From: Deltaproteobacteria bacterium
GTDB taxonomy: Bacteria > Myxococcota_A > Polyangia > Polyangiales > JADJMO01
Direction of reading: 5' to 3'
NCBI GenBank assembly: GCA_025363655.1
Contig: JANYDK010000132.1
Span: forward strand, 1 to 64,000
DNA length: 64,000 bases
Of this stretch, positions 3,270 through 23,615 are shown piece by piece. The number at the start of each line of letters is the position of its first letter. Position 1 is the first letter of the stretch. The notes under the pieces are model-generated. The model searched no databases. It had not been told where the DNA came from and saw nothing but the letters and a program-made list of their open reading frames with translations. Both the position numbers and the translations under genes were made by a program.

Positions 3270-5411
3270 TCAGGGGAGCGTCGTCGTGATCTTGGAGACG
3301 CCGACGTGTCCGGCGAAATCTTCCGCGAGCACCGTCAACGTGTAGATGCCGGGGAGCATCGGCCGAACATTGATCTTCAAGTCTTCGATCTTGTCCCATT
3401 TGACGTTGATCGGCAGCTTCAGCGACGACGACTTCCCACTTCCGTCGACGACGCGATAGCTCGGAGAGAACGCGACCTTACCGGCCGGTAGCTTCCGCGG
3501 ATCGAACGGCGTGTAGAAGATCTCGCCGTCGGTCTTGTCGATGAAGAAGCCGCTGAGAAGTTTGCTCCCGGCGAATCGAAGGAGCACCGGCTCTTCCTGT
3601 TTGCTCGTCAGCGAGACGGCGAGGACCTCGGCGTCGAAGGTGGTGCTGCCGAGGCGCTCGCGGTTAATCGAGAGCGGAAACTCGGCGCCGTCCTTCCCCG
3701 AGAGGGTGATGTACTGCGGGTTCCACTTCGCCGAGACGACGTTGGTGCCCTTCTTCCAAGCGGTGATCGCCGGCCCCTCCGCGAGCTGCTTGAAGAGCGC
3801 CGGATCGGTCACCGGATCGACCTCCACCGGCACCACCGCCGAGAGGAGGTTCTGCGAGACGATCATCACCGCCTCGCGCACTTCACCGTCGATTTGCGCG
3901 GTGACCGTGCGCTCACCCATGAAGAAGGGATTGGCGATCTGCTTCAGTACTTGGATGTTGCTCACCTTCGGCGCGACCGAGCTGTCGAACGCCTTCGAAT
4001 AGACGGTGAGCAGCTGGCTCCACGGGCTCGATTTGCCGAAAGGCGTCTTCTGATAGCTCGGGAGGAAATCGATGATGTCCTCGGTCGGCGGCAGCCAAAT
4101 CGAGAGGCCGCGGGCGTGCACTTTGTCGGCGCCGTCGAAGGCGTCGACCCGCGCCGCATCGAGCGAAGCGATGACCGCGCTGGCAGTGGCCTTGATGTCG
4201 GCGTTCTGCGTGGTGTCGCGCAAAACAGCAGCGATTTGCACCAAATCGGCGTACCCCTCGCTCGCGCCACCGAGCGGGTTGGTCTGCGGACCGAACTGAT
4301 CGACCGACGCGCCGGCGATGCCGAGCCCGACTTTGTTGTTCGCCAGATCGCCCTTCAGCAGCGTCGCCAGCTTGTCGACGTTGGCGCGCAAGACTGGCAC
4401 TTTGCTCATGTCGAAGAGCGCCTCGGTCACCGACGGATCGACGTCGGTGCCGCCCTCGCCGTAGAAGCCCTTCATCGAGGCGACGAAGGCTTTCCCCAGC
4501 GCCAAACCGTCCATCGTCGGCGTCGTCGTCAGCGCGCGCATCACCGGCTTGAAGTCGTATCCAGGCCCCGGCACCAGCTCCTCGCTCGAAGCCCAATAGT
4601 CGACGTGCGGCCAGAGCGCGTCGGCGACTTCCATCGAGCCCATCAGACACGCATCGGTCGCCAGCACCGCGAACTTCGGCAGGCCTGCTTCTTTACGGCC
4701 TTCGTCGAGCCCTTTCTGCAGCTCGGCGATCGACATCAGCATCGGAGTCGCCTCCGGCGGCGCGTTCTCGTCGACGTATCCGCCCTTCCAACCGGCGCCG
4801 TGATCGCCCATCAAGAGCGCATATCGTTTGGCCGGATACTTCTTCGTCGCCCAGGCGATGAACTTCGCCAGCTCCTTCGGGTGCGACATGTCGATCTCCG
4901 GCATGTCCTCGAGGAGCTTGCTGGAGATGTTCGACGAGCAGTCGTCTTTGGTCATGTAGTAGCGACGCGCGTTGTCCCAATCACCATTGGTGCGGTCGTC
5001 CCGATCGGCCTCGGGCGAGCCGGGCGCGGGACGCCAGCGATCGATCTCGGTGACGATGTTCACCTTCGCGGTCGACCCGATGCACTCGACCTCGTCGAAA
5101 TCGTCGAGCAGCGGCCCCTCGAGGTTGTTGTCGGCCACCGTGTAGACGAGCACCGTCCACTCCGCTGCATTCGCCGGCGGCACGTAGGCCTTTCCGTCGG
5201 GCGTCGTCCCATATCCCGCCGCCGCACCTCCCGCAGTGGCGGGGTTACCGGTCGGTAACTTCGGCACCGGCTTCATCGACGTCGGGTTGCCGCCGAGGAG
5301 CCCGGGAGGAATCGGCGGATTGACCTGCGCATGGCTGGGGGAGAGGCCGAGCGAGAGGCCGAGGGCGAGCGCGAGCGGAAAGGCGGGGCGCGCGCGGGGA
5401 GGAAGGAGCAT
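3270..5411 (-). CDS. Secreted clostripain-family (C11) cysteine peptidase
   Basis: 713 residues from the ATG at 5411, preceded by GGAAGGAG. The longer open frame upstream is a shadow of other genes. A signal peptide ends near Ala28, and a Pro/Gly-rich linker leads to the C11 domain, which opens with WTVLVYTVADNNLE (about 85-98). The catalytic pair of the family is present: His204 in LLMGDHGAGWKGG and Cys255 in LATDACLMGSMEVA. About 300 C-terminal residues look like beta-sandwich domains. C11 enzymes cleave after basic residues and often self-process. Secretion and the 6-nt spacing to the histidine kinase suggest an extracytoplasmic protease made together with a sensor; whether the kinase monitors it is speculation. 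Confidence 0.9.
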   Translation of the reverse strand: MLLPPRARPAFPLALALGLSLGLSPSHAQVNPPIPPGLLGGNPTSMKPVPKLPTGNPATAGGAAAGYGTTPDGKAYVPPANAAEWTVLVYTVADNNLEGPLLDDFDEVECIGSTAKVNIVTEIDRWRPAPGSPEADRDDRTNGDWDNARRYYMTKDDCSSNISSKLLEDMPEIDMSHPKELAKFIAWATKKYPAKRYALLMGDHGAGWKGGYVDENAPPEATPMLMSIAELQKGLDEGRKEAGLPKFAVLATDACLMGSMEVADALWPHVDYWASSEELVPGPGYDFKPVMRALTTTPTMDGLALGKAFVASMKGFYGEGGTDVDPSVTEALFDMSKVPVLRANVDKLATLLKGDLANNKVGLGIAGASVDQFGPQTNPLGGASEGYADLVQIAAVLRDTTQNADIKATASAVIASLDAARVDAFDGADKVHARGLSIWLPPTEDIIDFLPSYQKTPFGKSSPWSQLLTVYSKAFDSSVAPKVSNIQVLKQIANPFFMGERTVTAQIDGEVREAVMIVSQNLLSAVVPVEVDPVTDPALFKQLAEGPAITAWKKGTNVVSAKWNPQYITLSGKDGAEFPLSINRERLGSTTFDAEVLAVSLTSKQEEPVLLRFAGSKLLSGFFIDKTDGEIFYTPFDPRKLPAGKVAFSPSYRVVDGSGKSSSLKLPINVKWDKIEDLKINVRPMLPGIYTLTVLAEDFAGHVGVSKITTTLP

Positions 5412-5501
5412 GGGCGGACGATAGCAGTGTGGAGACGGCGCGGGCGTCGGGGCTTGGGTGGCAAGTTGGCCCGGGTGGTGGAGCTCCGTTACGGGGCTCA
5501 T
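5412..5501. promoter_or_regulatory. Divergent intergenic region, C11 protease / small protein
   Basis: 90 nt separate the start of the protease gene from the start of the small protein gene on the other strand, so both promoters must lie here or just inside the genes. No clear sigma-70 boxes, inverted repeats or riboswitch-like folds were seen. Confidence 0.4.
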
Positions 5502-5990
5502 ATGGCCGCGCAAGTCAGCGTCTCTTCGCCGCGTTCCCATCCGAAAATTTGCATCGACTCCGAGCGGAGGCGGACGCGGAGTCATGACGCCGAGACGGCG
5601 CTCGCGATGCAGCTCGAGACGGTGCGCGACGAGCACGAGGTCGAGCTGCTGATCATCACCGACCTCGACGGTGCGCCACTCGAGAGCGCAGGCGACACCG
5701 ATGACGCCATCGCCCTCGCCGCCTTCGCCGCCGCGATCGCCAAGGAGCACCCTTCGTGGCAATCGATGGTCACGAGCCAAGGCTTCGTCGTCGTCGAACG
5801 CGTCGAAATCGGCTTGCGAAGCTGGGTCGTCGCTGCACAGTCCCGCTTCTCGCTCCCCGACCGCGCCGGCATCGCTCGCGCCGTGGCTGGCGTGATGCGC
5901 ATTCTCGCCAGTGGCCTGGCGCTCGACGTCGAGGCGCCGATTCCTTTGGTTCAATTGGGCGGCTGGGGCGACTGGCCGGAAGAGTGCTAA
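5502..5990 (+). CDS. Small cytoplasmic protein of unknown function
   Basis: 162 residues from the ATG at 5502. A segment reading ELLIITDLDGAPLESAG, followed by an alanine-rich helix and a later VERVEIGLRSWVVAAQSRF strand, has the beta-strand/helix pattern of Roadblock/LC7 (MglB-like) folds; that is a weak structural guess. No signal peptide or membrane segment is present. It ends 9 nt before the ChaC-like gene and probably shares its transcript. The frame is open further upstream to about 5331, but that part overlaps the divergent protease promoter and reads as arginine-rich shadow sequence, so the later start was chosen. Confidence 0.7.
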   Translation: MAAQVSVSSPRSHPKICIDSERRRTRSHDAETALAMQLETVRDEHEVELLIITDLDGAPLESAGDTDDAIALAAFAAAIAKEHPSWQSMVTSQGFVVVERVEIGLRSWVVAAQSRFSLPDRAGIARAVAGVMRILASGLALDVEAPIPLVQLGGWGDWPEEC

Positions 5991-5999
5991 ACCCCCGGC

Positions 6000-6527
6000 G
6001 TGCCTGACTGGCTCTTCGGCTACGGCTCCGTCATCTATCGCCCGAGCTTCCCATTTCTCGAGCGACGCCCAGCGACGCTGCACGGTTTTCGCCGACGATT
6101 TTCCCAGCTCTCCGACGATCACCGCGGCACACCCGAGGCTCCCGGTCGCGTCGTGACGTTGCGTGAAGTCGCCGGTGGCCGTGTACGTGGCGTCGCATTT
6201 CGCTTCGAGCACGCACGCGCGCCGGAGATCTTCGCCGAGCTCGATGTGCGCGAAAAAGCCGGCTACGTGCAGCGGCAAGTGGAGCTCGAGCTCGACGATG
6301 GCTCGCGTGTCGCCGCGCTCAGTTACATCGCCCCGCCCGGAAATGGCTGGGACGCGGGTGTCGAGAGCGACGAGGAGATCGCCGCGCGCATCGCTGCGTC
6401 GGTGGGGCCGAGCGGGAGCAACGTCGAATATCTCTTTCGGCTGCGCGATGCGCTCCGAGAGCTCGCCGACGACGACGATCATGTGGAGCACTTGGCGCGG
6501 CGGGTCCTCGAGCTGCGCGCGTCATAG
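6000..6527 (+). CDS. ChaC-like gamma-glutamylcyclotransferase
   Basis: 175 residues with a GTG start, about the usual size for this family. The N-terminal FGYGSVIYRP matches the substrate-loop motif FGYGS-(L/V)-(I/V)-x-(R/K)-P of ChaC proteins. LDVREKAGY near residues 81-89 corresponds to the family's conserved L-x-x-RE-x-x-GY segment, which carries the catalytic glutamate. These enzymes cleave the gamma-glutamyl bond of glutathione, giving 5-oxoproline and Cys-Gly. The gene follows the small protein by 9 nt. Glutathione specificity is inferred from family membership only. Confidence 0.85.
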   Translation: MPDWLFGYGSVIYRPSFPFLERRPATLHGFRRRFSQLSDDHRGTPEAPGRVVTLREVAGGRVRGVAFRFEHARAPEIFAELDVREKAGYVQRQVELELDDGSRVAALSYIAPPGNGWDAGVESDEEIAARIAASVGPSGSNVEYLFRLRDALRELADDDDHVEHLARRVLELRAS

Positions 6528-10686: not shown

Positions 10687-12678
10687 ATGGAAGGATACCC
10701 GGCCGTCGGCGCGATCGTTGCGAATCGATACCGCGTCGAGGCGTTGCTCGGCGAAGGTGGCATGGGCGCTGTCTTCCGCGCCGTCGAGGTGCAGGGCGAG
10801 GGCCGTCGCGTCGCGCTGAAGTTCACGTCGACGGAGGTCCGCGATCGGCCCGGCATCGCGAGCCGCTTCGCCAACGAGGCCGTCGCCGCGTCGAAGATCG
10901 CCAGCGAAAACGCGGTCAAAATCCTCGGCGTCGAGACGACCGCAGACGGCACGCCCTTCATCGTCATGGAGCTCCTCGAAGGGCACGACCTCGACGACGT
11001 CATCGAGCGCGAGGCGCCGATCACCGCCGAGCGCACCGTCCACTTCGGCCTGCAAATCCTCCGCGCGCTGCAGGTCGCCCACGGCGCCGGCGTCATCCAC
11101 CGCGATCTCAAGCCGGGCAACTGCTTCCTCGTGCAGAAAGACGGCGATCCCGACTGGGTGAAGATCATCGACTTCGGCATCGGCAAGATCCTCGGCGACG
11201 AGACGAGCCAGCTGACGCGCACCTCGATGACGCTCGGCACCCCTTCGTACATGTCGCCCGAGCAGGCGAAGAGCGCGAAATCGGCCGACGCACGCAGCGA
11301 TCTCTACTCGGTCGGCGTCATCCTCTACGAGCTGCTCACCAAGCGGCGGCCGTTCGAGGGTGATTCGCACAACGAGCTGGTGGTGAAGATCTGCACCGAG
11401 CCGCCGGTCCCGCTGCGCACCTACCGCAACGATCTGCCGAAGAAGCTCGTCGCAGCGGTCGAGCATGCGCTCGTGAAGAGCCCGACGGGCCGCTATGCGT
11501 CGGCGAACGAGTTCGTGGCCGCGCTTCGTCCCTTTGCCGGACCGCAGTCGGCCAACGTGCTCTCGCGCATCGACGGCACGCCGCCGCCGGCCTCGGTTTC
11601 GCCTGGCGCGGTCTCGATGATGTCGCCGCAGATGTCGCCGTCGGCGCTGGCAGGCCTGGGCAAGGGCGTCCCCGGCACCGCGCCGATGAACGAGCCGCAG
11701 ATTGGCCCGGATGGAGTCGCGCGGGCGGCATCGACGCAGTACGCCGCTCCTTCGCCTGCACCTCGCGTCGCTCCGGCTGCTGCGTCGCCTGCGCCTGCGC
11801 CCGCGCCTCGCGGCGAAGAGAAGACGATGCTCGGCGAGCCGGGTCCGATGGACTTCACGCCGCATGGCGCGCCGGTCGCTGCGATGGGCGCCGCTCCTGC
11901 AGTCGATGACGGCCGCGTGAAGACGGAGATGGGTGCGCCGGTCGTCAACGTCCTCGCACCGACACCGTTGGCTCCGAACCCGTACGCCGGCGCGCAGACG
12001 CCGGTGGTCGTGCCACCCGACGACGACGATTACGACGACGACGACCGTCGCGGTGGCACGTCGTGGCTGATGATTCTCCTCGGCCTGCTGGCGGTCGGGC
12101 TCGTCGGATCAGGCGTCTATTTCGCGGTTCTCGGCGGTGGCAAGAGCAGCCCGCCGAAACCGCCGGTGGTGGCCAAGGCGACGGATGGCTCGGACGACAC
12201 GACCGACGACGACACGACGCCGGCGAAGAAGAAAAAGAAGAAGCCGACCACGGCGACCAACGCCGTCGACGACGACGACACCACCGTGCCGGTGACGCAT
12301 CCGACGGCGACGTTCCCCAAGCCGACGGCCACGCCGACGACCAAGCCCTCCACCAAGCCGTCGACCTCGACCTCGACCTCCACCACGCCGTCGACCAAGC
12401 CGTCGACGAAGCCCTTCCCGACGTTCTCGTTTCCGACGATCACCTTTCCGACGCAGGCTCCAACTCCAGCGCCGACGCCCACGCCCACGCCCACGCCTGC
12501 ACCTACGCCTACGCCTACGCCGACGCTGATCATCGTCCCGACGGCGGCTCCGACGCCGACGCCCGCGCCGACACCGACGGTTGTGCCGGTCCCGACACCG
12601 ACACCGACACCAACTCCGACGCCGACCATCATCCCCGTGCCCACGGCCGCGCCGACCAAACCAAAGATCGGCGGCTGA
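10687..12678 (+). CDS. Transmembrane Ser/Thr protein kinase (Hanks type)
   Basis: 663 residues from the ATG at 10687. The N-terminal kinase domain (about 13-280) has the Gly-rich loop GEGGMG (22-27), the ATP-binding Lys45 in VALKF, the catalytic HRDLKPGN (Asp140), DFG at 162-164 and a GTPSYMSPEQA activation segment, so it should be active. It continues with an Ala/Pro-rich cytoplasmic linker, a single membrane span at about 459-480, an Asp/Lys-rich segment and a long Pro/Thr repeat tail outside the membrane. SHNELVVKICTE inside the kinase is typical of myxobacterial kinases. The tail has no PASTA domain, so how it senses anything is unclear. engB begins 2 nt after its stop. Confidence 0.95.
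   Translation: MEGYPAVGAIVANRYRVEALLGEGGMGAVFRAVEVQGEGRRVALKFTSTEVRDRPGIASRFANEAVAASKIASENAVKILGVETTADGTPFIVMELLEGHDLDDVIEREAPITAERTVHFGLQILRALQVAHGAGVIHRDLKPGNCFLVQKDGDPDWVKIIDFGIGKILGDETSQLTRTSMTLGTPSYMSPEQAKSAKSADARSDLYSVGVILYELLTKRRPFEGDSHNELVVKICTEPPVPLRTYRNDLPKKLVAAVEHALVKSPTGRYASANEFVAALRPFAGPQSANVLSRIDGTPPPASVSPGAVSMMSPQMSPSALAGLGKGVPGTAPMNEPQIGPDGVARAASTQYAAPSPAPRVAPAAASPAPAPAPRGEEKTMLGEPGPMDFTPHGAPVAAMGAAPAVDDGRVKTEMGAPVVNVLAPTPLAPNPYAGAQTPVVVPPDDDDYDDDDRRGGTSWLMILLGLLAVGLVGSGVYFAVLGGGKSSPPKPPVVAKATDGSDDTTDDDTTPAKKKKKKPTTATNAVDDDDTTVPVTHPTATFPKPTATPTTKPSTKPSTSTSTSTTPSTKPSTKPFPTFSFPTITFPTQAPTPAPTPTPTPTPAPTPTPTPTLIIVPTAAPTPTPAPTPTVVPVPTPTPTPTPTPTIIPVPTAAPTKPKIGG
12466..12642 (+). repeat. 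Pro/Thr (PTPAPTP) coding repeat in kinase tail
   Basis: Degenerate short tandem repeats of CCG/CCC/CCT and ACG/ACC/ACA codons encode an extracytoplasmic Pro-Thr stalk. Such stalks span the periplasm or carry glycans. The third codon positions vary, so the repeat is older at the protein level than a fresh DNA expansion. Confidence 0.7.
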
Positions 12679-12680
12679 CC

Positions 12681-13406
12681 GTGCGCGAAGCAAAACTCAT
12701 CGAAAAACCCGCGAAAACCGCGCCTGAAATCAACGCGTGGGACATCATCAAGGCCGAGTTCATCGCCTCGAGCGGCTCGAGCGAAGGCTCGACGTTGCCG
12801 GCACCGACGTTCGCCGAGGTCGCCTTCGGGGGCCGGAGCAACGTCGGCAAGTCGAGCATGCTCAACGGCCTCATGCAGCGCAAAGGGCTCGTCCGCACCT
12901 CGTCGACGCCTGGGTGCACGCGCGCAGTCAACATCTTCCACGCGGTCACGCGCGCGGGCCTCGAGCTCAACTTCGTCGACTTGCCCGGCTACGGCTTCGC
13001 GAAACGCAGCAAGGAAGAGCGAAAGCTTTGGGGCACCATCCTCGAGAAGTACATCCTCGAGCGTCCGACTTTGCGCGCCGTGGTCGTCATCGTCGATGTG
13101 CGACGCGGCGTCGAAGAGGACGACCTCGAGCTCCTCGAGTTCTGCGCCCAACCGCGGCCGGGCAACGCGCCGCTGAAGACGCTGATCATCGCCACCAAGC
13201 TCGACCTCCTCCCGAAGTCGAAGCGCAAGCCCGCGCTCGCCGCCATCAAGGCCGCCACCAAGCGTCCGGTGCTGGGTTTTTCCGCTGAATCGCAAGAAGG
13301 CCGGGTCGACGTGGTGCGCGCCATCGAGCGTGCGATTCTCGGAGAAGTGCCGACCGAGACGACCGAGACTACGGAGACGACCGAGACGACGGAGCCGACG
13401 ACGTGA
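12681..13406 (+). CDS. engB: Ribosome-biogenesis GTPase EngB/YihA
   Basis: 241 residues from a GTG 2 nt after the kinase stop. The GTPase motifs are complete: G1 GGRSNVGKSS, G2-region STPGCTRAVN, G3 DLPGYG, G4 TKLD and G5 SAES. The GCTR-x-x-(N) and LPGYGFA segments are specific to the EngB/YsxC family, which assists large ribosomal subunit assembly in the cytoplasm. The C-terminus carries five TET-like tripeptides encoded by 9-bp units, a feature not usual for EngB. The stop overlaps the next start by 4 nt (GTGA). Being directly behind a membrane kinase gene suggests shared transcription. Confidence 0.95.
   Translation: MREAKLIEKPAKTAPEINAWDIIKAEFIASSGSSEGSTLPAPTFAEVAFGGRSNVGKSSMLNGLMQRKGLVRTSSTPGCTRAVNIFHAVTRAGLELNFVDLPGYGFAKRSKEERKLWGTILEKYILERPTLRAVVVIVDVRRGVEEDDLELLEFCAQPRPGNAPLKTLIIATKLDLLPKSKRKPALAAIKAATKRPVLGFSAESQEGRVDVVRAIERAILGEVPTETTETTETTETTEPTT
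13353..13397 (+). repeat. 9-bp in-frame tandem repeat at the engB 3' end
   Basis: Five units of ACCGAGACG and close variants encode TET-TET-TET-TET-TEP at the very C-terminus of EngB. Length changes here would alter only the tail. Confidence 0.8.
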
Positions 13407-14448: not shown

Positions 14449-17400
14449 CTAATTGCCGATGACGGTCTCTTCCTCCGACAACGCGTCGGAGGCGAGGCAG
14501 AACGTGCGGAAGCTCGCGTACTTGTCGGGGTCGATGCGGGCGGCGGCGAGGTCCCAGGCGCGCTTCATGGTGAGCGTGGAGCCAGTGAGGGAGTCGCTGG
14601 CTTCGGTGAGGTCGGGGCCGAAGGCGAGCTTGCCGACGATGGGGCCACGCTTGACCTTCATGCCGCTCGGGAGACGGATGTCGATCTGCAGCGTCTGCTT
14701 CTCGCCGCCGTCGAGCACCATCGGCGTCAGGCGCAGCGGGTGCGGGACGAGGCCGGCGAGGCGACGACGGAAGGGCGCGAAGACGACGAGCTCGCCACCA
14801 CCGACGGCGCGCGCGAAGGACGGGACCTCGACGGCGACGTTGATGCCTAGAGGTTGGTCGAGGTCTTCGCGGTTGACGATTTCGAGCTTCTTCAGCTGCA
14901 CGTTCGGCAACTGCTTGGCGAGAATGCCCGACTCGACGGCGGCGCGGAGCTCGCCCTCGGAGAGCTGATCGATGCCCTCGCGGAGGCTGGCGCCGATGAT
15001 GCCCGAGTACTCGAGCGTGAGCGTACCGACGGCGTCACCGTTGGGGGCCATGTCGAAATTGCCACGGACGAAGATGCCGTCGACGACGCCGCCGGCCGGC
15101 ACCTTGCTGCGAGGCGCGCCGGGACGAAGGACGATCGCCTCTTCACCGCGCGCCGACGGGGGCACGTAGCCGAAGGGGAGGTAGCGACCTCCGAACGACA
15201 TGAAGAGCTCGCCCTCGTCGGTCGAGACGTCGAGCAGCGTGTGACGGAAGCCGTCGCCGGCCGAGAGGGGCGAAGCGGGGGGCGGCGCCAGGCGATCGTG
15301 CGCGATGGCGATGTACGTGTCGATGCCGGCAGCGCGCGCGAGCACGCGGAAGGCCGCGGCAGGATCGCCCGAGTTGCCGATGATCACGCGACGACCGTCG
15401 GACTCTTCGCCTTTCTGGATGTTGCGCGTGACCCATTGGTAGAGCTTGCGCGCGCGTTCGGCGGTCTTCGCGGGCGGGATGGTGCCGACGATCGACATCG
15501 CCTTCTTGACGATGCGCGGATCGACCGGGGTCGTCTCTTTGAGCGCAGCGGCGGCGCTGGCGACGGCGTCCTCGAGCTTCACGCCCCAACCAAAGCTGAC
15601 GTTGGGGATCCACTCGTCACCCGAGGCGCGGTACTCCGGCTCGTCCGGCGCAGGGGGCGCGTCGTCGGCGCGGAAACGACGGACGTCGAAGGCGCCGAGC
15701 TCGCTCACCACCGGCTTCGGTGCACCCGCACGCGCCTCGAAGATGGCCGCGCGACCCTTGGGGGTGATGACGAGGTATTCGCTGCGCGCGTAGGCGATGC
15801 GCGGCTCGGCGAAGAACCAACGAGGCGCGACGTAGGAAGACATCGACGCGCTGCCCGAGCTGATGACCTCGGTCTCGATGATGTCGCCGACGTCGAGATC
15901 GGGGAACGTCAGATCGGGTTTGCCGGCGACGCGCAGCGGCTCGAGTGAACGTCCGTCCTTCTTCAGCACGCGGAGGTGAAGCGCCTTGCCTGCCTTGGCC
16001 TGCACGCGCGAGAGCTCACCGATGGCGTCGCGCGAGAGGACGCGGATGATCTCGTGCTCGAGGAACGACGTGCTGCCGTCGCTGCGAATCCAGAGAGCGC
16101 CGTAGTCGAGGATGCGCTCGGCGGAGCCTTGCGGCGTCTTGCCTTTGTGCTTCTCGTCGTGCTCGGCGATGACCTTGTGCGCATCGAGCCGAAAGGGCGA
16201 GAAATCGAGCGTTTGCTGCAAGAGCTCGAGCGCGCGGAGGACGTCGCCGGGGCGCACTGCGTACTTCTCGATGGTGCGCTTGATGGCGTCGTCGAAGGCG
16301 TGCTTGTTCCCCTTCGCCAGCCCTTGCTCGAGGAAATCCATCGCCGTGCCTTTGCCCTTGGCGAGCTCGGCGGCGATGCGTGCGGTGGCCTCGTCGATGG
16401 AACCTTGGGAAGCCTTCAGCTCTTCGAGCCGCGTGACGTACGACTTGCGATCGGGGTGCGCGGCGACGAAGGCTTCGAAGGCCTTGATCGCGCCCGGCAC
16501 GTCGCCGAGGCCGAGGAAACGCTGCGCGAGGATCGGCTCGTCGGGCTCGATCTCGGCGAGGTGGATCGCCAACTTGTCGGCTGCCGTGAGCGGCCCGTGC
16601 TCGTCGAGGTTGGTGAGCTGCATGCGGACGACCGAAGGATCGTCGGGGAATTGCTTCACCAGATCGGCGACGAGCTTGTCGTGCTCGAGCGTCCAGCCGA
16701 GCTCACCGTAGAGCTCGACGAGTTGCAGCGAGGCGTTCGGTCGCTCTTTCGCCTTGGCCACCAGCGCGGCCAGGCGCTTGGCCTTCTCGGGCGGCGGCGT
16801 GCCTTCACCTTGCAGCTCGACGGCGAGGAGCGGCGAGAGCCACAGCTCCGGATCGACCTCTGCTGCTCGCTCGAAGAGAGCTTTTCCACGCGACGTCGCG
16901 CGCGGCGCCGGCCAGATCGGATCGCGCACGGCGGCCTGCGCGGCGAGCTCGAGGAGCGCACCGGGCGCGTCGCTCTCCTTCACCGGACCGGTTCCGGCGT
17001 CGAGGAGCTCGCCGAGGATCACCGAAGCGACGTCGGCCGCGTCACGATCGAGCGCGGCGCGCGCGGCGAAGAAGGTCGTCAGCGGATCGTGCTCGGAGTC
17101 TTCGCTGGCCGCCAAGACCGGGTGCGGATCGTCGACGACGACAGGCTTTTTCCCGCCATACGCCGGCGTAGGGTCATCGTCGGTGGTGACCTTCAGCGTC
17201 TCGCCGTCGTGCGCGCGCACCTCGATGGCCGAGGCGCCGTCGCCCGCGCGGACGACGATGCGATGACGACCGGCGGCGAGACGAAGCACCACCGAGTCGT
17301 GGAGCGGGCCGCCCCACTTCGTACGATCGCGAAGACGGACGACGACGTCATCGACCGTGACGCGCGTGCCATCACTGGGAGCGAGCACGATTTCCTGCTC

Positions 17401-18228
17401 GCGATCGAGCGTGAGGAAGGTCTCGGCGAGGTAGACGCCGCGCCCTGGGCTCGATTTCGCCGACGTCGTGCAGCCGATCGACTCGGTGGCGAGGACGCGC
17501 GGACGCACCGACGCACCCGGCCGCCCTTCGAACACCGCCGGCCACGACGTCGCGTGCTCGCCTTCGAGCGCGGAGGTGTCGTCGTCGCCCGGAGAGAACT
17601 CGAACGGCCCGGCGATGCGCATCTTCTCGACGCACCCGATGGTCTTGCGACGAATCGCTGCGCCCTCGGAGAGCGGCTTGCCGAACTCGCTCGCCGCCGC
17701 GACGAGGTGCGCGATCGACGACAGCGCACGAAAACCGAGCCCACTCGGCGTCGCACGTGGTGCGAGGAGCGGCGCCAGACCTTGCAGCGCCGTCAGCCGA
17801 TGCGCGCGCGGAACGAGCGGCGCCAAATCCGAAAGCGCTTCGACGGCGACGAGTCCGACCAGCGGCGAGCGCTTGGAGGGAGCCTCGGCGGTCGCAACGA
17901 GCACCTCGATCCACTCGTCGAACGCCTTCGTCGCGACCCCGTGCACGTCGTCGTCGAGCGCGCGCGCCAGCTTCGCATCGAGCCCGCCCCCCGTCGCCGC
18001 ATCGAGCTTCTTGCGCGCATCCCGCGCCCCTTTGGTCGTCCCACCGGGCGCCACCAGCTCGGCCGAGAGCAGCCGCCCGAGGGCATCGGGGTCACCACTC
18101 GCCGCCTCTTCACGAGCCTTGTCGAGCGCACTCCGCGGCGTCGGCTCGAGCGAGCAGCCGCTGCCCGCCGAAAGAGCGAGCACGAACAGAGGCGCGAGCA
18201 CGATGCGCAGGAATTTGGGCGCGGGCAT
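14449..18228 (-). CDS. Very large DUF3857/transglutaminase-like lipoprotein with degenerate active site
   Basis: 1259 residues. The signal peptide has a lipobox-like SGC (Cys25). The N-terminal half holds helical repeats and a beta-sandwich-like part; the C-terminal half starts near residue 690 with a DUF3857 domain (WIRSDGSTSFLEHEIIRVLS) and continues into a transglutaminase-like region after ARKLYQWVTRNIQK. Where active relatives have G-D-C-x-D-x-A, this protein has GNSGDPAAAF, so the catalytic Cys is gone. A His remains in FRHTLLDV, but the expected Asp position is not acidic. It is probably a structural or binding pseudo-enzyme in the envelope. It is a paralogue of the 1339-residue protein at 19596-23615, whose active site is intact. 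Confidence 0.85.
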   Translation of the reverse strand: MPAPKFLRIVLAPLFVLALSAGSGCSLEPTPRSALDKAREEAASGDPDALGRLLSAELVAPGGTTKGARDARKKLDAATGGGLDAKLARALDDDVHGVATKAFDEWIEVLVATAEAPSKRSPLVGLVAVEALSDLAPLVPRAHRLTALQGLAPLLAPRATPSGLGFRALSSIAHLVAAASEFGKPLSEGAAIRRKTIGCVEKMRIAGPFEFSPGDDDTSALEGEHATSWPAVFEGRPGASVRPRVLATESIGCTTSAKSSPGRGVYLAETFLTLDREQEIVLAPSDGTRVTVDDVVVRLRDRTKWGGPLHDSVVLRLAAGRHRIVVRAGDGASAIEVRAHDGETLKVTTDDDPTPAYGGKKPVVVDDPHPVLAASEDSEHDPLTTFFAARAALDRDAADVASVILGELLDAGTGPVKESDAPGALLELAAQAAVRDPIWPAPRATSRGKALFERAAEVDPELWLSPLLAVELQGEGTPPPEKAKRLAALVAKAKERPNASLQLVELYGELGWTLEHDKLVADLVKQFPDDPSVVRMQLTNLDEHGPLTAADKLAIHLAEIEPDEPILAQRFLGLGDVPGAIKAFEAFVAAHPDRKSYVTRLEELKASQGSIDEATARIAAELAKGKGTAMDFLEQGLAKGNKHAFDDAIKRTIEKYAVRPGDVLRALELLQQTLDFSPFRLDAHKVIAEHDEKHKGKTPQGSAERILDYGALWIRSDGSTSFLEHEIIRVLSRDAIGELSRVQAKAGKALHLRVLKKDGRSLEPLRVAGKPDLTFPDLDVGDIIETEVISSGSASMSSYVAPRWFFAEPRIAYARSEYLVITPKGRAAIFEARAGAPKPVVSELGAFDVRRFRADDAPPAPDEPEYRASGDEWIPNVSFGWGVKLEDAVASAAAALKETTPVDPRIVKKAMSIVGTIPPAKTAERARKLYQWVTRNIQKGEESDGRRVIIGNSGDPAAAFRVLARAAGIDTYIAIAHDRLAPPPASPLSAGDGFRHTLLDVSTDEGELFMSFGGRYLPFGYVPPSARGEEAIVLRPGAPRSKVPAGGVVDGIFVRGNFDMAPNGDAVGTLTLEYSGIIGASLREGIDQLSEGELRAAVESGILAKQLPNVQLKKLEIVNREDLDQPLGINVAVEVPSFARAVGGGELVVFAPFRRRLAGLVPHPLRLTPMVLDGGEKQTLQIDIRLPSGMKVKRGPIVGKLAFGPDLTEASDSLTGSTLTMKRAWDLAAARIDPDKYASFRTFCLASDALSEEETVIGN

Positions 18229-18321: not shown

Positions 18322-19515
18322 TCAGCGTCGCGTGAAGTAGTAGAGCGCGAAGGCGATCGCCATCAAGACGAGGATCCAGAAGAGCGGCGACGGCTTCTTC
18401 GGCTCTTCTTCTTTTTCCTTCTCGACCCGCGCGATGGGGGCACGCACCTTCGGTGCCGGCTCGTCTTCTTCCTCGGGCTCTTCGACGACGACGGGCTTCT
18501 TCGGTTTGGGCTCGGACTTGGGTTCGGGTTCCGGCTCGGGCTTCGGTTCGGATTTCTTCGGTTCGGGTTCCGGTTCCGGTTCGGGTTCCGGTTCGGGCTT
18601 CGGTTCGGGCTTCGGTTCGGGCTTCGGCTCCGGCTCGGGGGCGGGTTCAGGTGCGGGCGCGGGTGCGGGTTCGGGCGCAGGCTCGGGCGCGGGTGCGGGC
18701 GCAGGTGCAGGCGCAGGTGCAGGCGCGGGCGTGGGCGCAGGCACGACCTTGGACTCGGGCACCGGCGTCATCTCCGCTGCAGCCGCCGCCTTCTTCGCCG
18801 CAGCCTTCTCCTTCGCCTCGATCTCCGGCCGGAAATCCCTGAGCACGATCGCCTGCGCGTTCGCACCACCGGCGCGCGTGTTGTGCAGACCCTTGGCTTT
18901 CGCGGCGAGGATCTTCTCCAACCCAGCTCCATCGACGCCGCCCTGCACCAAGTAGCTCGTGAGCTCGTCGAGCGTGCCTTCACATGCGTCGATCAGCGCA
19001 GTCGCATAGGCCTTCATCGCGCCATCCGCGCGCGCGGCGTCGGCTTTGCGGACCGAGCCGAGGGCGAAGACGCAGGGTTGTTTGATCGCGGCGATCGGCA
19101 TCGTGGCCGAGACGCGTTCGGCGTTGAAGACCACGAGGGCGCGCTTGACGCGTTCGCGTTTGAGGATCTCTTCGACGTCGGCCCATGGGACGCAGCCCTT
19201 CGGCGGAGAGGCTTCGGTCTCGCGGACGGCGAGCATCAGATCGCCGCCACGCTCGAGGAGGCAACCGGCGAAGTAGAGGAAGAAGGCTCCGTCCTGCGCC
19301 TCGTGGATGCCCTTCTGCAGGGCATTGAAGAGGTCGATGCTGGTCTGGGGATCGATCAGCGTGCGCGAGCTGCCGGCGAAGGTGGTCTGGCCGAGGGCCT
19401 TGCCGAGTGCGCGTGCGCTCTCGGCGGCTTGCGGAACGCTCGGGAGCAACGGGTCGACGTGCTTCGCGACTCCCACGAACAGCGCGTAGCGTTTCGACTC
19501 GTCGAAGACAGGCAT
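18322..19515 (-). CDS. Tail-anchored caspase-like protein with lost active site
   Basis: 397 residues. The first 210 resemble a caspase/C14 p20 fold: [20 protein letters not shown] at the start, an inserted strand [12 protein letters not shown], then [13 protein letters not shown]. Active relatives carry SGHG at the first site and D-C-C-x-S at the second; here these are AGCL and FNAER, so both catalytic residues are missing. A basic/Ala-rich helix follows, then about 110 residues of Pro/Ala, Pro/Glu and Pro/Lys repeats. The protein ends with a single hydrophobic span ([17 protein letters not shown]) and TRR, a C-terminal tail anchor. The head would face the cytoplasm. It sits between two giant transglutaminase-like genes on the same strand. 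Confidence 0.75.
18490..18750 (-). repeat. Pro/Ala-Pro/Glu-Pro/Lys stalk repeat
   Basis: Alternating-proline coding repeat: PAPAP units, then PEPEP and PKPEP units, made of 6-bp and 12-bp DNA steps (GGGTTC, GGCTTC, GGCGCA on the plus strand). It should form a stiff extended stalk between the caspase-like head and the membrane anchor. Confidence 0.75.
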
Positions 19516-19595: not shown

Positions 19596-22500
19596 TTACG
19601 GTGAAATCACCAGGCGCTGTCCGAGGGCTCCGTCGACGTCGCGGAGAAAGGCGCGGAAGGCCGCGTAGTCCTTGGCGTGCACGCGCGTGACCGCGAGCTC
19701 GAAGCGCGCGTGGATCTTGACGACGCCCTTCGTCACCTCGACCTCGACGGAGTAGCTGCCGAACGCCGTCGTGCCCTTCTTCGACTCCGGCGTGCGATCG
19801 ATCTTCGCGCCGGGAGGGAGCTTGTAGGTGAAGCGGTCGTCGACCGATTGCGTCGACCAGAAGCGCAGATCTTGTTTGCGATCGGAGAGCGGCGCCCAGG
19901 CGGCGACGAGCGATCCCATCGTCGAGACCGGGAGCGTGCGACGATCGCCGTCGATTTTGCCGAAGCTCGCGCCCTTGCCCTTGGCCTTGATCGACGGGGT
20001 TTTCTCGAGCTCTTCCAGCGCGCTCGGCGTCACCGACGACCACTCGACGGCGGTGAAATCGGCCGGGAGATCTTCGTGGAGCTTGGCCTCGAGCGGCGAG
20101 GTCACGCGATAGCGACCGCGGAGGCGCGGCGCGAAGGTGCCGGTGCCCTCGAGCGTCGCCTCGACCGAGCTCGCCGACAGATCTTTGGCGAGCTCGATCT
20201 CGGAGACGAGCGTGCGCACGGAGGCCGAGGCGGGCGGATCGGGGAGATGGACGATCTTCGCCTTCTGCCCGATGGCCTGGCCGATTTGCACAGCGAGCGC
20301 GTTGCGATCCATCGCCGGAAGCTCGGTCGATCCGTGATCTTCGGCGGTGCCGTCGAGGTAGAGATCGAGCGAGGGAACGTAGGCGATCATGTGATCGAAG
20401 AGCGCCAGCGACGGCGGCTGGGTGGCGACGTCACCGCGCTGGTTCGTGCGCACGAGCACCGGCACCGCCTCGATGTTCAGCTCCTTCAACATGGTGACGA
20501 TGAGCGTCGCCTTGTCTTTGCAGTCGCCGAAGCCGCGCGCGAAAATCTGCGAGCAGCGGTAGGGCAGGAAGCCGTGGATGCCGAACTCGAGGGCGACGTA
20601 GCGCGTCTGCTGCACGACCCAGTCGTAGACCGCGCGGATCTTGTCTTCGTTCTTGGTGAGTCCCTTGGTGATCTCCTTCACCTTGGCGCGCACCGCGTCG
20701 TCGGCGACGTACTGATCTTTGACCAGACCCCAGTACCAAGCGGCCAGCGAATCCCAGTCTTTGTAGGTGGAGACGTGCACCTTGGCGAGCGTCTCGGCCC
20801 ACGGCGGCATGCTCGGTTCGCTGATCGTGCCGGGCACCATCTCGGCCAGCCAACGACGGACGTGGAAGTCGCCCTTGTCTTCTTCGGTGAAGGCGACCTT
20901 GAGCGTGGACGGATTCTCGATGGCCAGCTCGCGACCCTTGGGAGTCCGCAAAACGTGCTCGATGCGCGCGGTCGGCTCGGAGTTCTGCAGGTACTCGACC
21001 TCGCCGAAGTAGTCGCCGAAGGCGTTGCGCGGGGTGGTGTCCTCGATGCGATAGCGAAGCTCGACGACGTCACCGGCGCGGAGGTTGGGGAAGAGCACGT
21101 AGTAGACGCGCCCCGACGTGTACATCGAGATCGACGGATCGTTGTTGCTCGTCTCGCCCGTCTCCGCGGCCTCGTCGACCTTGCCGTCTTCGCGGTAGAT
21201 CTTCGCTGCGCGCAACGTGACGGTTTCGATGTCGGCTTGGAACCCGAAGGCATACTGCTTCGCCTTCGAGACCGCCTCGTTGGTGAGCGGCTGAAAGACG
21301 ATCTGCTTGAAGCGCGAGCTGAGCCCGTTCGGGAGCACGGTCGTCACCGTGACCTCCGAGAGGATGCGCGTGTCGAAGCCGAGCGAGGGGAGCGTGCGAC
21401 GTTTGAGGAAGACCTCGCTCGCCTCGGCGTACATCTCGTCCTCACGCGGCTTGCTCGGCTCGGCTTGCTCGAGGTAGTCGCGAATCTCGGTCAGCTGCGG
21501 CCAGCGCGCGAGCACCTGCTTGTAGAGCTTGAGCTGCACGTCGCGCTTGCCCCGTCGACCTTCGACGTCGGCGAGGGCGATGCTGATGCTCGGATCGTCG
21601 GGTGCGATCTCGAGCGCGGCGGTGAGGAGACCGACCGCGAACGCTGGATCGCCTAGTTTTTCCATGGCTCCGGCGCCATCGCGGATCGGCGCGTCACCGG
21701 TCGGATCGATCGCACGCCAACGAGCGATGACCGCCCGAGCGGCGACGACGTCGCGCGTGCGCACCGCGGTGTCGAGGCTGTCGGTGAGGTAGGCGCCGTC
21801 GGTGAGCGAGAGCTGCGCCCAACGGAGACGAATCTCGTCGGCGTCGTTCGGCGCATCGAGCGCGGTCCAACGAACCAAGCGCTCGAGGAGCACGCGCGAG
21901 CGCGGACGGAGACCGAGCGCTTTGTCGATCTCGCCGCGCGCGATGCGACGCATGCCGACCGAGGCGATCAAGTCGGCGTGGGCGACGATGCTCTGCAGGT
22001 GATCGGGCGACTTCTGCAGCGCGCGTTCGTAGAAGGGGAGCGCGTCGTCGGGGTTCGGACCGCCGGCCGCGAGGAGCCCTTCGGCGTAGAGGACGTCGAC
22101 GTCGTTCGGCGCGAGCGCGACGGCCTTCTCGACGAAGCCACGACGCTGGTTGCGATCTTCCGCGAGCTCACCGGCGAGGAGGTAGCGGGCCGCGGTCGGC
22201 GAAGTCTCGGCGGCGCGCCTCGCGAGGTCACGCGCTTCGTGCTTGGTCGGATCGTCGCCGCCGGTCTCGGAGAGATGACGGGCGAGCTGCTCGAGGTCGG
22301 CGGCGCTGCTCTTGTCGCCTTTGGCGCGGGCGATGAGGGTCTGGAAGTAGCTCTTGGCGTTGCCGACCGAGAAGGGCTCCGAGAGGAGGAGCGGCTTCTT
22401 CTCGGGCTTGAATTCGCTCGTTTTCTCGGCCTTTTCGTCGCCCTTCTTCTCGAGCTTCTTTCCGTCTTTCTCGTTCTTCTCGGGCTTCTCGTTCTTCTCG

Positions 22501-23615
22501 GGCTTCGGCTCTTCCTTCGGCGCCGGCAGCGGCGGCTTCTTCGCCTCTTCCTTCTCGTTCTTCTCGTTCTTCTCGTTCTTCTCGTTCTTCTCGTTCTTCT
22601 TCGCGTCGCCTTTCTTGGCGTCGCCCTTCTTCGGGTCGATCTTGGCGACCGGCTTCTCGTCCTTCGTCTTGCCTTTGCCCTCGGCGTCGGCGGCCCAACG
22701 CGGATCGGAGTCGACGCGGATGCCGGTGAACGGCGCTCCCTTGGCGTCGGCGATGCGCAACGTCAACGAGGGCGAGCGGTCCATGCCGCAGACCTTCACC
22801 AAGAGCCGGTTCCACCCCGGCGCGATGGTGATCGAGGTCGCCATGCGATCGAACGTGAGCCCGCGCTCGGCGGAGTCTTCGAGGACGCGATCGCCATTCC
22901 AATAGACACGAACGCTCCCAGAGGCACCGAGCCAGAGCGAGGCGTCGAGCGGCTTCGCCTTCTTGTCTTCGGTGGACGAGCCGTTGACGAACGTCGTCGC
23001 GAGCACGCACGCGTGGGTGCTCGGGCGAACCGCGGCGGCGAGATCGACGATGCCGAACGGCGAGGCGGCCTCGGGGAGGCGGCGCCAATGCACGCCCTTG
23101 TGGTCTTTGCCGTCGTACGTCATCGTCGCCGAGAGGAGCCCGCGGCGATCGAGTTCAGGCCCGATTTCCGGGGCGAAACCGGCACGGCCTTCGTGATCGA
23201 AGGGACCGACGACGAGCCACTTGTCGACGTAGCCGGCGTGCATCGCGAGGGTGTGCGCTTCGCTGGTGTCGCCGAGTTGGAGACGCGCGGTGGCGGCGAA
23301 GGCCGTGGCGAGCGCGCGCACCGGCGGATCGATCGAAGCGTCGTCGCCGAGCGACTTGAGCGCGGCCGAAATGGCGAGCGGATCGTCGAGGTCCCAGTGG
23401 TTCCAGAGATCGTAGATGGCGTCGGCTTGATCGATGCCTTTGCTCGACTTCACGCGCGCGGCGATCGCCCAGGCTCCAGCGGAAGCGTCACCGCTCCCCG
23501 ACTTGGGCACCCCGGCGACGACGTCGGCGGCGAGCAGCGTCAGAGGGACGAGAAGGGCAAAATGAAGGGAGCGGTGCACGTCGGAAGTTGTCGACTGGAG
23601 CGGCTGGCGGGTCAA
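19596..23615 (-). CDS. Giant secreted DUF3857/transglutaminase-like protein with intact Cys-His-Asp and TPR-like region
   Basis: 1339 residues with an N-terminal hydrophobic signal segment (HFALLVPLTLLAADVVAG). The N-terminal third includes a beta-sandwich-like part (VYWNGDRVLEDSAERG) and a very basic linker with KNE repeats at about residues 340-420. TPR-like helices occupy about 430-720, with AVALAPNDVDVLYAEGLL and ALEIAPDDPSISIALADV. A DUF3857 domain follows at about 750-930. The transglutaminase-like core at about 970-1110 contains GFGDCKDKAT (Cys), ALFDHMIAYV (His) and LYLDGTAEDHG (Asp), a complete triad. Reactions in this family include amide cross-linking or hydrolysis; the real substrate is unknown. 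It is paralogous to the 14449-18228 protein. Confidence 0.9.
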   Translation of the reverse strand: MTRQPLQSTTSDVHRSLHFALLVPLTLLAADVVAGVPKSGSGDASAGAWAIAARVKSSKGIDQADAIYDLWNHWDLDDPLAISAALKSLGDDASIDPPVRALATAFAATARLQLGDTSEAHTLAMHAGYVDKWLVVGPFDHEGRAGFAPEIGPELDRRGLLSATMTYDGKDHKGVHWRRLPEAASPFGIVDLAAAVRPSTHACVLATTFVNGSSTEDKKAKPLDASLWLGASGSVRVYWNGDRVLEDSAERGLTFDRMATSITIAPGWNRLLVKVCGMDRSPSLTLRIADAKGAPFTGIRVDSDPRWAADAEGKGKTKDEKPVAKIDPKKGDAKKGDAKKNEKNEKNEKNEKNEKEEAKKPPLPAPKEEPKPEKNEKPEKNEKDGKKLEKKGDEKAEKTSEFKPEKKPLLLSEPFSVGNAKSYFQTLIARAKGDKSSAADLEQLARHLSETGGDDPTKHEARDLARRAAETSPTAARYLLAGELAEDRNQRRGFVEKAVALAPNDVDVLYAEGLLAAGGPNPDDALPFYERALQKSPDHLQSIVAHADLIASVGMRRIARGEIDKALGLRPRSRVLLERLVRWTALDAPNDADEIRLRWAQLSLTDGAYLTDSLDTAVRTRDVVAARAVIARWRAIDPTGDAPIRDGAGAMEKLGDPAFAVGLLTAALEIAPDDPSISIALADVEGRRGKRDVQLKLYKQVLARWPQLTEIRDYLEQAEPSKPREDEMYAEASEVFLKRRTLPSLGFDTRILSEVTVTTVLPNGLSSRFKQIVFQPLTNEAVSKAKQYAFGFQADIETVTLRAAKIYREDGKVDEAAETGETSNNDPSISMYTSGRVYYVLFPNLRAGDVVELRYRIEDTTPRNAFGDYFGEVEYLQNSEPTARIEHVLRTPKGRELAIENPSTLKVAFTEEDKGDFHVRRWLAEMVPGTISEPSMPPWAETLAKVHVSTYKDWDSLAAWYWGLVKDQYVADDAVRAKVKEITKGLTKNEDKIRAVYDWVVQQTRYVALEFGIHGFLPYRCSQIFARGFGDCKDKATLIVTMLKELNIEAVPVLVRTNQRGDVATQPPSLALFDHMIAYVPSLDLYLDGTAEDHGSTELPAMDRNALAVQIGQAIGQKAKIVHLPDPPASASVRTLVSEIELAKDLSASSVEATLEGTGTFAPRLRGRYRVTSPLEAKLHEDLPADFTAVEWSSVTPSALEELEKTPSIKAKGKGASFGKIDGDRRTLPVSTMGSLVAAWAPLSDRKQDLRFWSTQSVDDRFTYKLPPGAKIDRTPESKKGTTAFGSYSVEVEVTKGVVKIHARFELAVTRVHAKDYAAFRAFLRDVDGALGQRLVISP
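22552..22596 (-). repeat. 9-bp perfect tandem repeat (KNE units)
   Basis: Five perfect copies of TTCTCGTTC on the plus strand encode (N-E-K) units of the basic linker in the giant transglutaminase-like protein. Perfect identity at all positions, including third bases, indicates recent expansion. Confidence 0.9.

Follow-up and report, generated by a model that had tools for sequence, protein, structure and literature searches.

A tail-anchored pseudo-orthocaspase lacking the catalytic dyad and acidic pocket residues in a deltaproteobacterial genome

The locus and its surroundings

The window (the whole stretch of 64,000 nucleotides of deltaproteobacterial DNA that was analyzed) carries on its reverse strand a gene that runs from ATG to stop without interruption and encodes a caspase-like head, a long proline-rich linker and a hydrophobic C-terminus (Table 1). 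The sole close homolog of this protein is encoded by JALHOE010000203.1 (Deltaproteobacteria bacterium isolate bin.11; G001:C203), from a metagenome-assembled genome of the same family, and is 39% identical over the head. Both proteins have lost the caspase catalytic residues, and they are referred to below as the dead pair.

Table 1. Features of the caspase-like gene and its immediate neighbors in the window
Feature	Position	Strand	Basis or remark
Whole gene, 397 aa, tail-anchored pseudo-orthocaspase	18322..19515	-	ORF reading
Caspase p20-like core, residues 6-135	19111..19500	-	Profile, HMM, hhalign, model, PDB matches
Ser33 replacing first pocket Asp	19417..19419	-	Alignment with 44 active relatives
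Cys85 replacing catalytic His (44/44 in active relatives)	19261..19263	-	Alignment
N131-A132-E133-R134 replacing D-x-C-x	19114..19125	-	Same four residues in homolog
C-terminal half of head, residues 136-230, p10-like by position only	18826..19110	-	
Proline stalk, residues 256-341	18493..18750	-	Composition reading
C-terminal membrane span, residues 377-395	18331..18387	-	Hydropathy
Upstream neighbor, exported TPR/DUF3857/transglutaminase-like	19596..23615	-	80 bp away
Downstream neighbor, lipoprotein-like TPR/DUF3857/transglutaminase-like	14449..18228	-	93 bp away

The two large flanking proteins, both exported, are distant relatives of each other, and the upstream gene is possibly on the same transcript as the dead caspase. 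A conserved operon was considered as support for the reading given below and was rejected: none of the other four family genomes contains a match to the lipoprotein-like neighbor, and the neighbors of the homolog differ, being by reading a HIT-domain-like protein and a cytochrome c peroxidase-like protein. Because the homolog has other neighbors, the genomic context points to no conserved partner. Elsewhere in the window, positions 3270-6491 on the reverse strand encode a 1073-residue protein with a clostripain (Peptidase_C11) domain, likewise of a clan CD fold (E = 6.6e-35).

The initial annotation of this gene had placed a single membrane span at the extreme C-terminus, and the hydropathy profile agrees, with one hydrophobic span that peaks at residues 377-395 of 397 (mean hydropathy 2.0) and is followed by just two residues. 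The N-terminus, read directly, has no signal. A lone span within about 30 residues of the C-terminus and no N-terminal signal are the marks of a C-tail-anchored protein, and the window protein would on its sequence belong to that class. The span is flanked by charges (KKP before, RR after), which do not by themselves fix its orientation.

The linker had been described as a stalk of about 110 alternating-proline residues that changes from PAPAP to PEPEP to PKPEP. The shift in composition from PAPAP to PEPEP/PKPEP is present in the window protein, but the length was somewhat generous, since strict X-P alternation covers 62 residues (258-319) within a proline-dense part of about 86 residues; the entire irregular linker comprises residues 232-376 (about 145 residues). 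The homolog has a similar proline stalk, which ends at the end of its contig, but the direction of the compositional change is not kept. A genome search found about 30 places in the organism's own genome that match the stalk, which is therefore an ordinary linker for this organism, and its treatment as a special feature was rejected. By polyproline geometry, the proline-dense part would be up to roughly 25 nm long when fully extended. A GTPase (MMR_HSR1) protein encoded in the window at 12063-13406 on the forward strand has a stalk-like stretch at 12448-12828 on the same strand.

Evidence for a caspase fold

That the head is caspase-like, as initially proposed, is supported by several kinds of comparison. 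The NCBIfam model caspase_w_EACC1 matched residues 10-130 with E = 1.2e-14, at a score of 54 bits against a curated cut-off of 140 bits. A hidden Markov model trained only on 44 active caspases, with the dead pair left out, gave both dead proteins about 50 bits over residues 3-132, and alignment of the pair with active caspases by hhalign reached 98.5% over the whole head. Furthermore, tblastn detected an annotated Streptomyces caspase with 34% identity over residues 4-105. A Pfam scan of the protein gave no caspase match at E ≤ 1, including Peptidase_C14 (PF00656), and a PF00656 search of its own genome matched only L019, the intact caspase described below.

Structure prediction and fold search also matched the core. 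An AF2 model built from a four-row alignment had a pTM of 0.68, with pLDDT of 70-91 at most positions of the core, and its predicted order of elements is that of the caspase core (beta1-alpha1-beta2-alpha2-beta3-hairpin-alpha3-beta4). The best match of the model in the PDB was the MALT1 paracaspase (Foldseek E 8e-5; Z 12.1 over 178 residues, 3.4 Å), followed by metacaspases and caspases. The model is not fully independent evidence, because two of the four alignment rows were intact viral caspases that may have steered the fold. A single-sequence prediction of the head was of no use, with a pLDDT of 39. A profile search of the PDB with the pair only reached no caspase, and MALT1 and metacaspases came up when the query was a broader caspase alignment. 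Viral contigs were also scanned for caspases that might deepen the alignment, and few were found. L085 and L086, from IMG/VR contigs classed as viral, are metacaspase-like with intact HG and DCC motifs.

The caspase match is limited to residues ~6-135, and it is for this core that a caspase fold is supported. Residues 136-230 aligned no better than shuffled columns and so have no support from sequence; they were poorly modeled, with low confidence, although the structural alignment still extends to residue 230.

The family of the best profile match raises the question of whether the protein is the caspase-like part of a conflict (counter-invader) system, such as an EACC1-caspase or vWA-MoxR system, and inactive caspases are indeed frequent in vWA effector positions (PMC7159879). 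We consider this distinctly unlikely, given that the profile score falls below the curated cut-off for the family, that Pfam recognized no EACC1, vWA, MoxR or effector-associated gene among 22 neighboring proteins (the adjacent upstream gene being of the DUF3857/TPR type), and that the sole PADLOC match, at 0.013, was weak and did not fall within the core.

Loss of the catalytic dyad and acidic pocket

Alignment with the 44 active relatives confirmed the initial reading of AGCL and FNAER in place of the catalytic segments. The window protein has FAG-C85-L at the position of xGHG and F-N131-A-E133-R at the position of (L/I)-D-x-C-x, so that Cys85 stands for the catalytic His and Glu133 for the catalytic Cys. 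Among the active relatives, the His, Asp131 and Cys133 are each present in 44 of 44 and Asp33 in 36 of 44; at these four columns the window protein has C85, N131, E133 and S33. The initial annotation had proposed aligning related proteins to see whether both sites are always lost; the homolog has Phe for the His (AGF for AGH), Glu for the Cys, the same NAER and Ser33. Neither member of the pair retains the His-Cys dyad of an active C14 peptidase, and as a bacterial p20 domain with replaced dyad residues the window protein is a pseudo-orthocaspase.

In TbMCA2, Asp95 and Asp211 are the two acidic pocket residues for basic substrates (PMC6426788). From the alignment, we take the Asp33 and Asp131 columns as equivalent to these two residues, and both members of the pair have Ser33 and Asn131 there. 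Because these columns correspond to the acidic residues that hold basic substrates, the pocket is gone along with the dyad.

The missing residues suggest that the protein is inactive as a protease. The earlier statement that it cannot be a caspase-type protease gains from the loss of both pocket Asp residues and is too absolute in one respect, namely that the pair has C108, H19 and H211 in common. These residues could in principle form a new active site elsewhere in the fold, with C108 as the nucleophile and H19 or H211 as the base, and C108 lies within the most conserved motif, GCVPWxDVE, near its start. However, Cys also occurs at the C108 column in 2 of 44 active caspases, which have no need of it, and three residues in common say little when they come from one pair at 39% identity. 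Such a relocated site seems extremely improbable.

Distribution of the dead pair

Searches at three taxonomic levels (order, 183 genomes; class, 317 genomes; phylum, a sample of 377 genomes) found no further member. Scans of genome contigs with the single protein gave no match, and scans with the pair alignment recovered the known homolog only. Caspase-profile matches within the order numbered 113 in 56 genomes, the pair included; of the other 111, 109 keep the His as well as the Cys, one is truncated where its contig stops and one could not be assigned. In a tree, the two dead proteins group as a clade with support of 100/100; the stem leading to them is long, and no intact caspase is a close sister. 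A different family within the order contains a protein (L016/L026; G161:C138:41955-42338) with Gln for the His, the Cys kept and one membrane span; this Gln-Cys pseudo-orthocaspase is a lineage separate from the dead pair.

Conservation around the former active site

The loss of all key catalytic and pocket residues is what would be expected of a caspase gene decaying without function. Several findings oppose this explanation. The frame of the window gene is open, and the replacements recur in a homolog that is only 39% identical; because of this recurrence, the open frame and both losses are more than chance. The stalk is also kept. Furthermore, conservation is highest exactly around the dead site: within the dead pair, residues 76-135 are 54% identical with the key columns left out of the count, whereas the rest of the head reaches 29% in the shared alignment and 33% in the pairwise one. 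The resulting ratios, 1.87 (shared alignment) and 1.63 (pairwise), lie above those of every intact-caspase pair of similar identity, whether among 62 pairs (maximum 1.24) or 164 pairs (maximum 1.45). The medians for intact pairs were about 0.9, and Fisher p values were 0.002-0.009. The intact pairs are mutually non-independent, and one pair makes up the whole dead group. The pair is at large divergence, with dN of 0.59 and dS of 0.83.

Free decay after the loss of catalysis predicts the opposite of this pattern, and the unusually focused conservation around the dead site therefore favors a binding role over decay. The word "conserved" here rests on one pair, as only two sequences define the group. 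Taken with the other findings, decay is very improbable.

Active caspases in the same genomes

The organism's own genome (G000) contains two caspases by the models used, namely the dead protein and the intact L019 (G000:C6:71593-72168, reverse strand), and the genome of the homolog contains an L019-like intact caspase, L062 (G001:C17). Both intact proteins have N-terminal lipoprotein-type signals (RRNFLMSAMASIAVAAGC in L019; MRRSLLALSASLALFGC in L062). L019 and L062 also have in common a C-terminal segment with WDEWV, and they are apparently exported lipoprotein caspases.

This co-occurrence invites a model in which the dead protein would behave as cFLIP does toward caspase-8, pairing with the cell's own active caspase as a dominant-negative regulator. 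Both genomes with a dead caspase carry the related active one, these are the only two caspases detected in the window's genome, and two other genomes of the comparison (G003 and G004) have neither; this pattern comes from five genomes only. The lipoprotein-type signals should place L019 and L062 outside the cytoplasm, whereas the dead protein lacks any export signal, a difference that makes a cFLIP-like pairing less likely. In addition, the intact genes lie on contigs other than that of the dead caspase, L019-type caspases occur elsewhere with no dead one, and conservation is lower in the half of the head expected to contain the dimer interface. We regard this regulatory pairing as unlikely.

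Proposed role of the protein

The explanation that we favor, and consider reasonably probable, is that a pseudo-orthocaspase has been turned into a non-catalytic, membrane-tethered docking module. The caspase-fold head, having neither the dyad nor the two acidic pocket residues, would serve in docking rather than catalysis. It would lie in the cytoplasm, where we place it because there is no export signal, with the tail anchor in the inner membrane and the proline-rich linker keeping the head off the membrane surface. On sequence grounds, a binding surface is best sought in the former active-site face, and the remodeled residues 76-135 (including GCVPWxDVE, LKR and NAER) most likely bind a partner protein or peptide. 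The bound partner would then be gathered at the membrane. A sensing or recruiting role had been suggested in the initial annotation, and the arrangement outlined here would favor recruitment over sensing.

A variant of this explanation is that the active-site face has been rebuilt as a ligand or peptide site (NAER, GCVPW), or as a relocated Cys-His center, at the tip of a membrane-anchored stalk. We think this rather unlikely; if true, the rebuilt site at the stalk tip would be a type of sensor or recruiter undescribed for caspase-like proteins.

Comparison with known systems

Inactive and C-terminally anchored caspase homologs are already known. In the survey by Klemencic et al. (2019, PMC6426788), 858 of 9,994 bacterial orthocaspases were pseudo-variants. 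Alphaproteobacteria and Cyanobacteria held 90% of these, the dyads were reported mainly as YS, YA, YN, YG, FS, QC and HA, and the acidic pocket was reported as highly conserved. Deletion of one pseudo-orthocaspase, SyOC of Synechocystis, altered oxidative-stress tolerance (PMC7889975). The window protein resembles the pseudo-orthocaspases of these studies in having a prokaryotic p20 domain with a replaced dyad, a p10 undetectable by sequence and presumed inactivity. It differs in that the pair has a Cys/Phe-Glu dyad, both pocket Asp residues are replaced, and a stalk and tail anchor are present; a kept acidic pocket is a reported, though not defining, trait of the cyanobacterial forms that the window protein lacks. 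Furthermore, the dead pair comes from a deltaproteobacterial/myxobacterial lineage rather than the two groups that hold most reported cases.

Cyanobacterial metacaspases with a caspase head and a C-terminal helix were described by Asplund-Samuelsson et al. (2012, PMC3501461), and the window protein is like them in its predicted cytoplasmic head and single C-terminal membrane helix. They belong to a different phylum, however, and the main text of that paper, in which the word "proline" is absent, describes no proline linker. The EACC1-associated caspases provide the closest profile, include inactive forms and belong to membrane-linked systems (PMC7159879), but the window protein falls below the family cut-off and has no EACC1 or vWA-MoxR partner nearby. 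Kaur et al. (2020, PMC7159879) proposed that inactive caspase domains bind peptides or act in a dominant-negative way within conflict systems. The MALT1 paracaspase and type I metacaspases are the best structural matches of the predicted model, but those proteins keep the dyad and are only about 15% identical in sequence.

The combination found here is new: a Cys/Phe-Glu dyad, a lost pocket, a stalk and a tail anchor, in a lineage with few such forms. In most known bacterial dead caspases the acidic pocket is retained, so that basic peptides might still be held. In the dead pair, dyad and pocket are both lost while their surroundings are the best conserved part of the head, a situation that separates a substrate-binding pseudo-protease from a pure docking surface. 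With this pair, the known range of pseudo-orthocaspases also comes to include a lineage whose caspases are nearly all intact.
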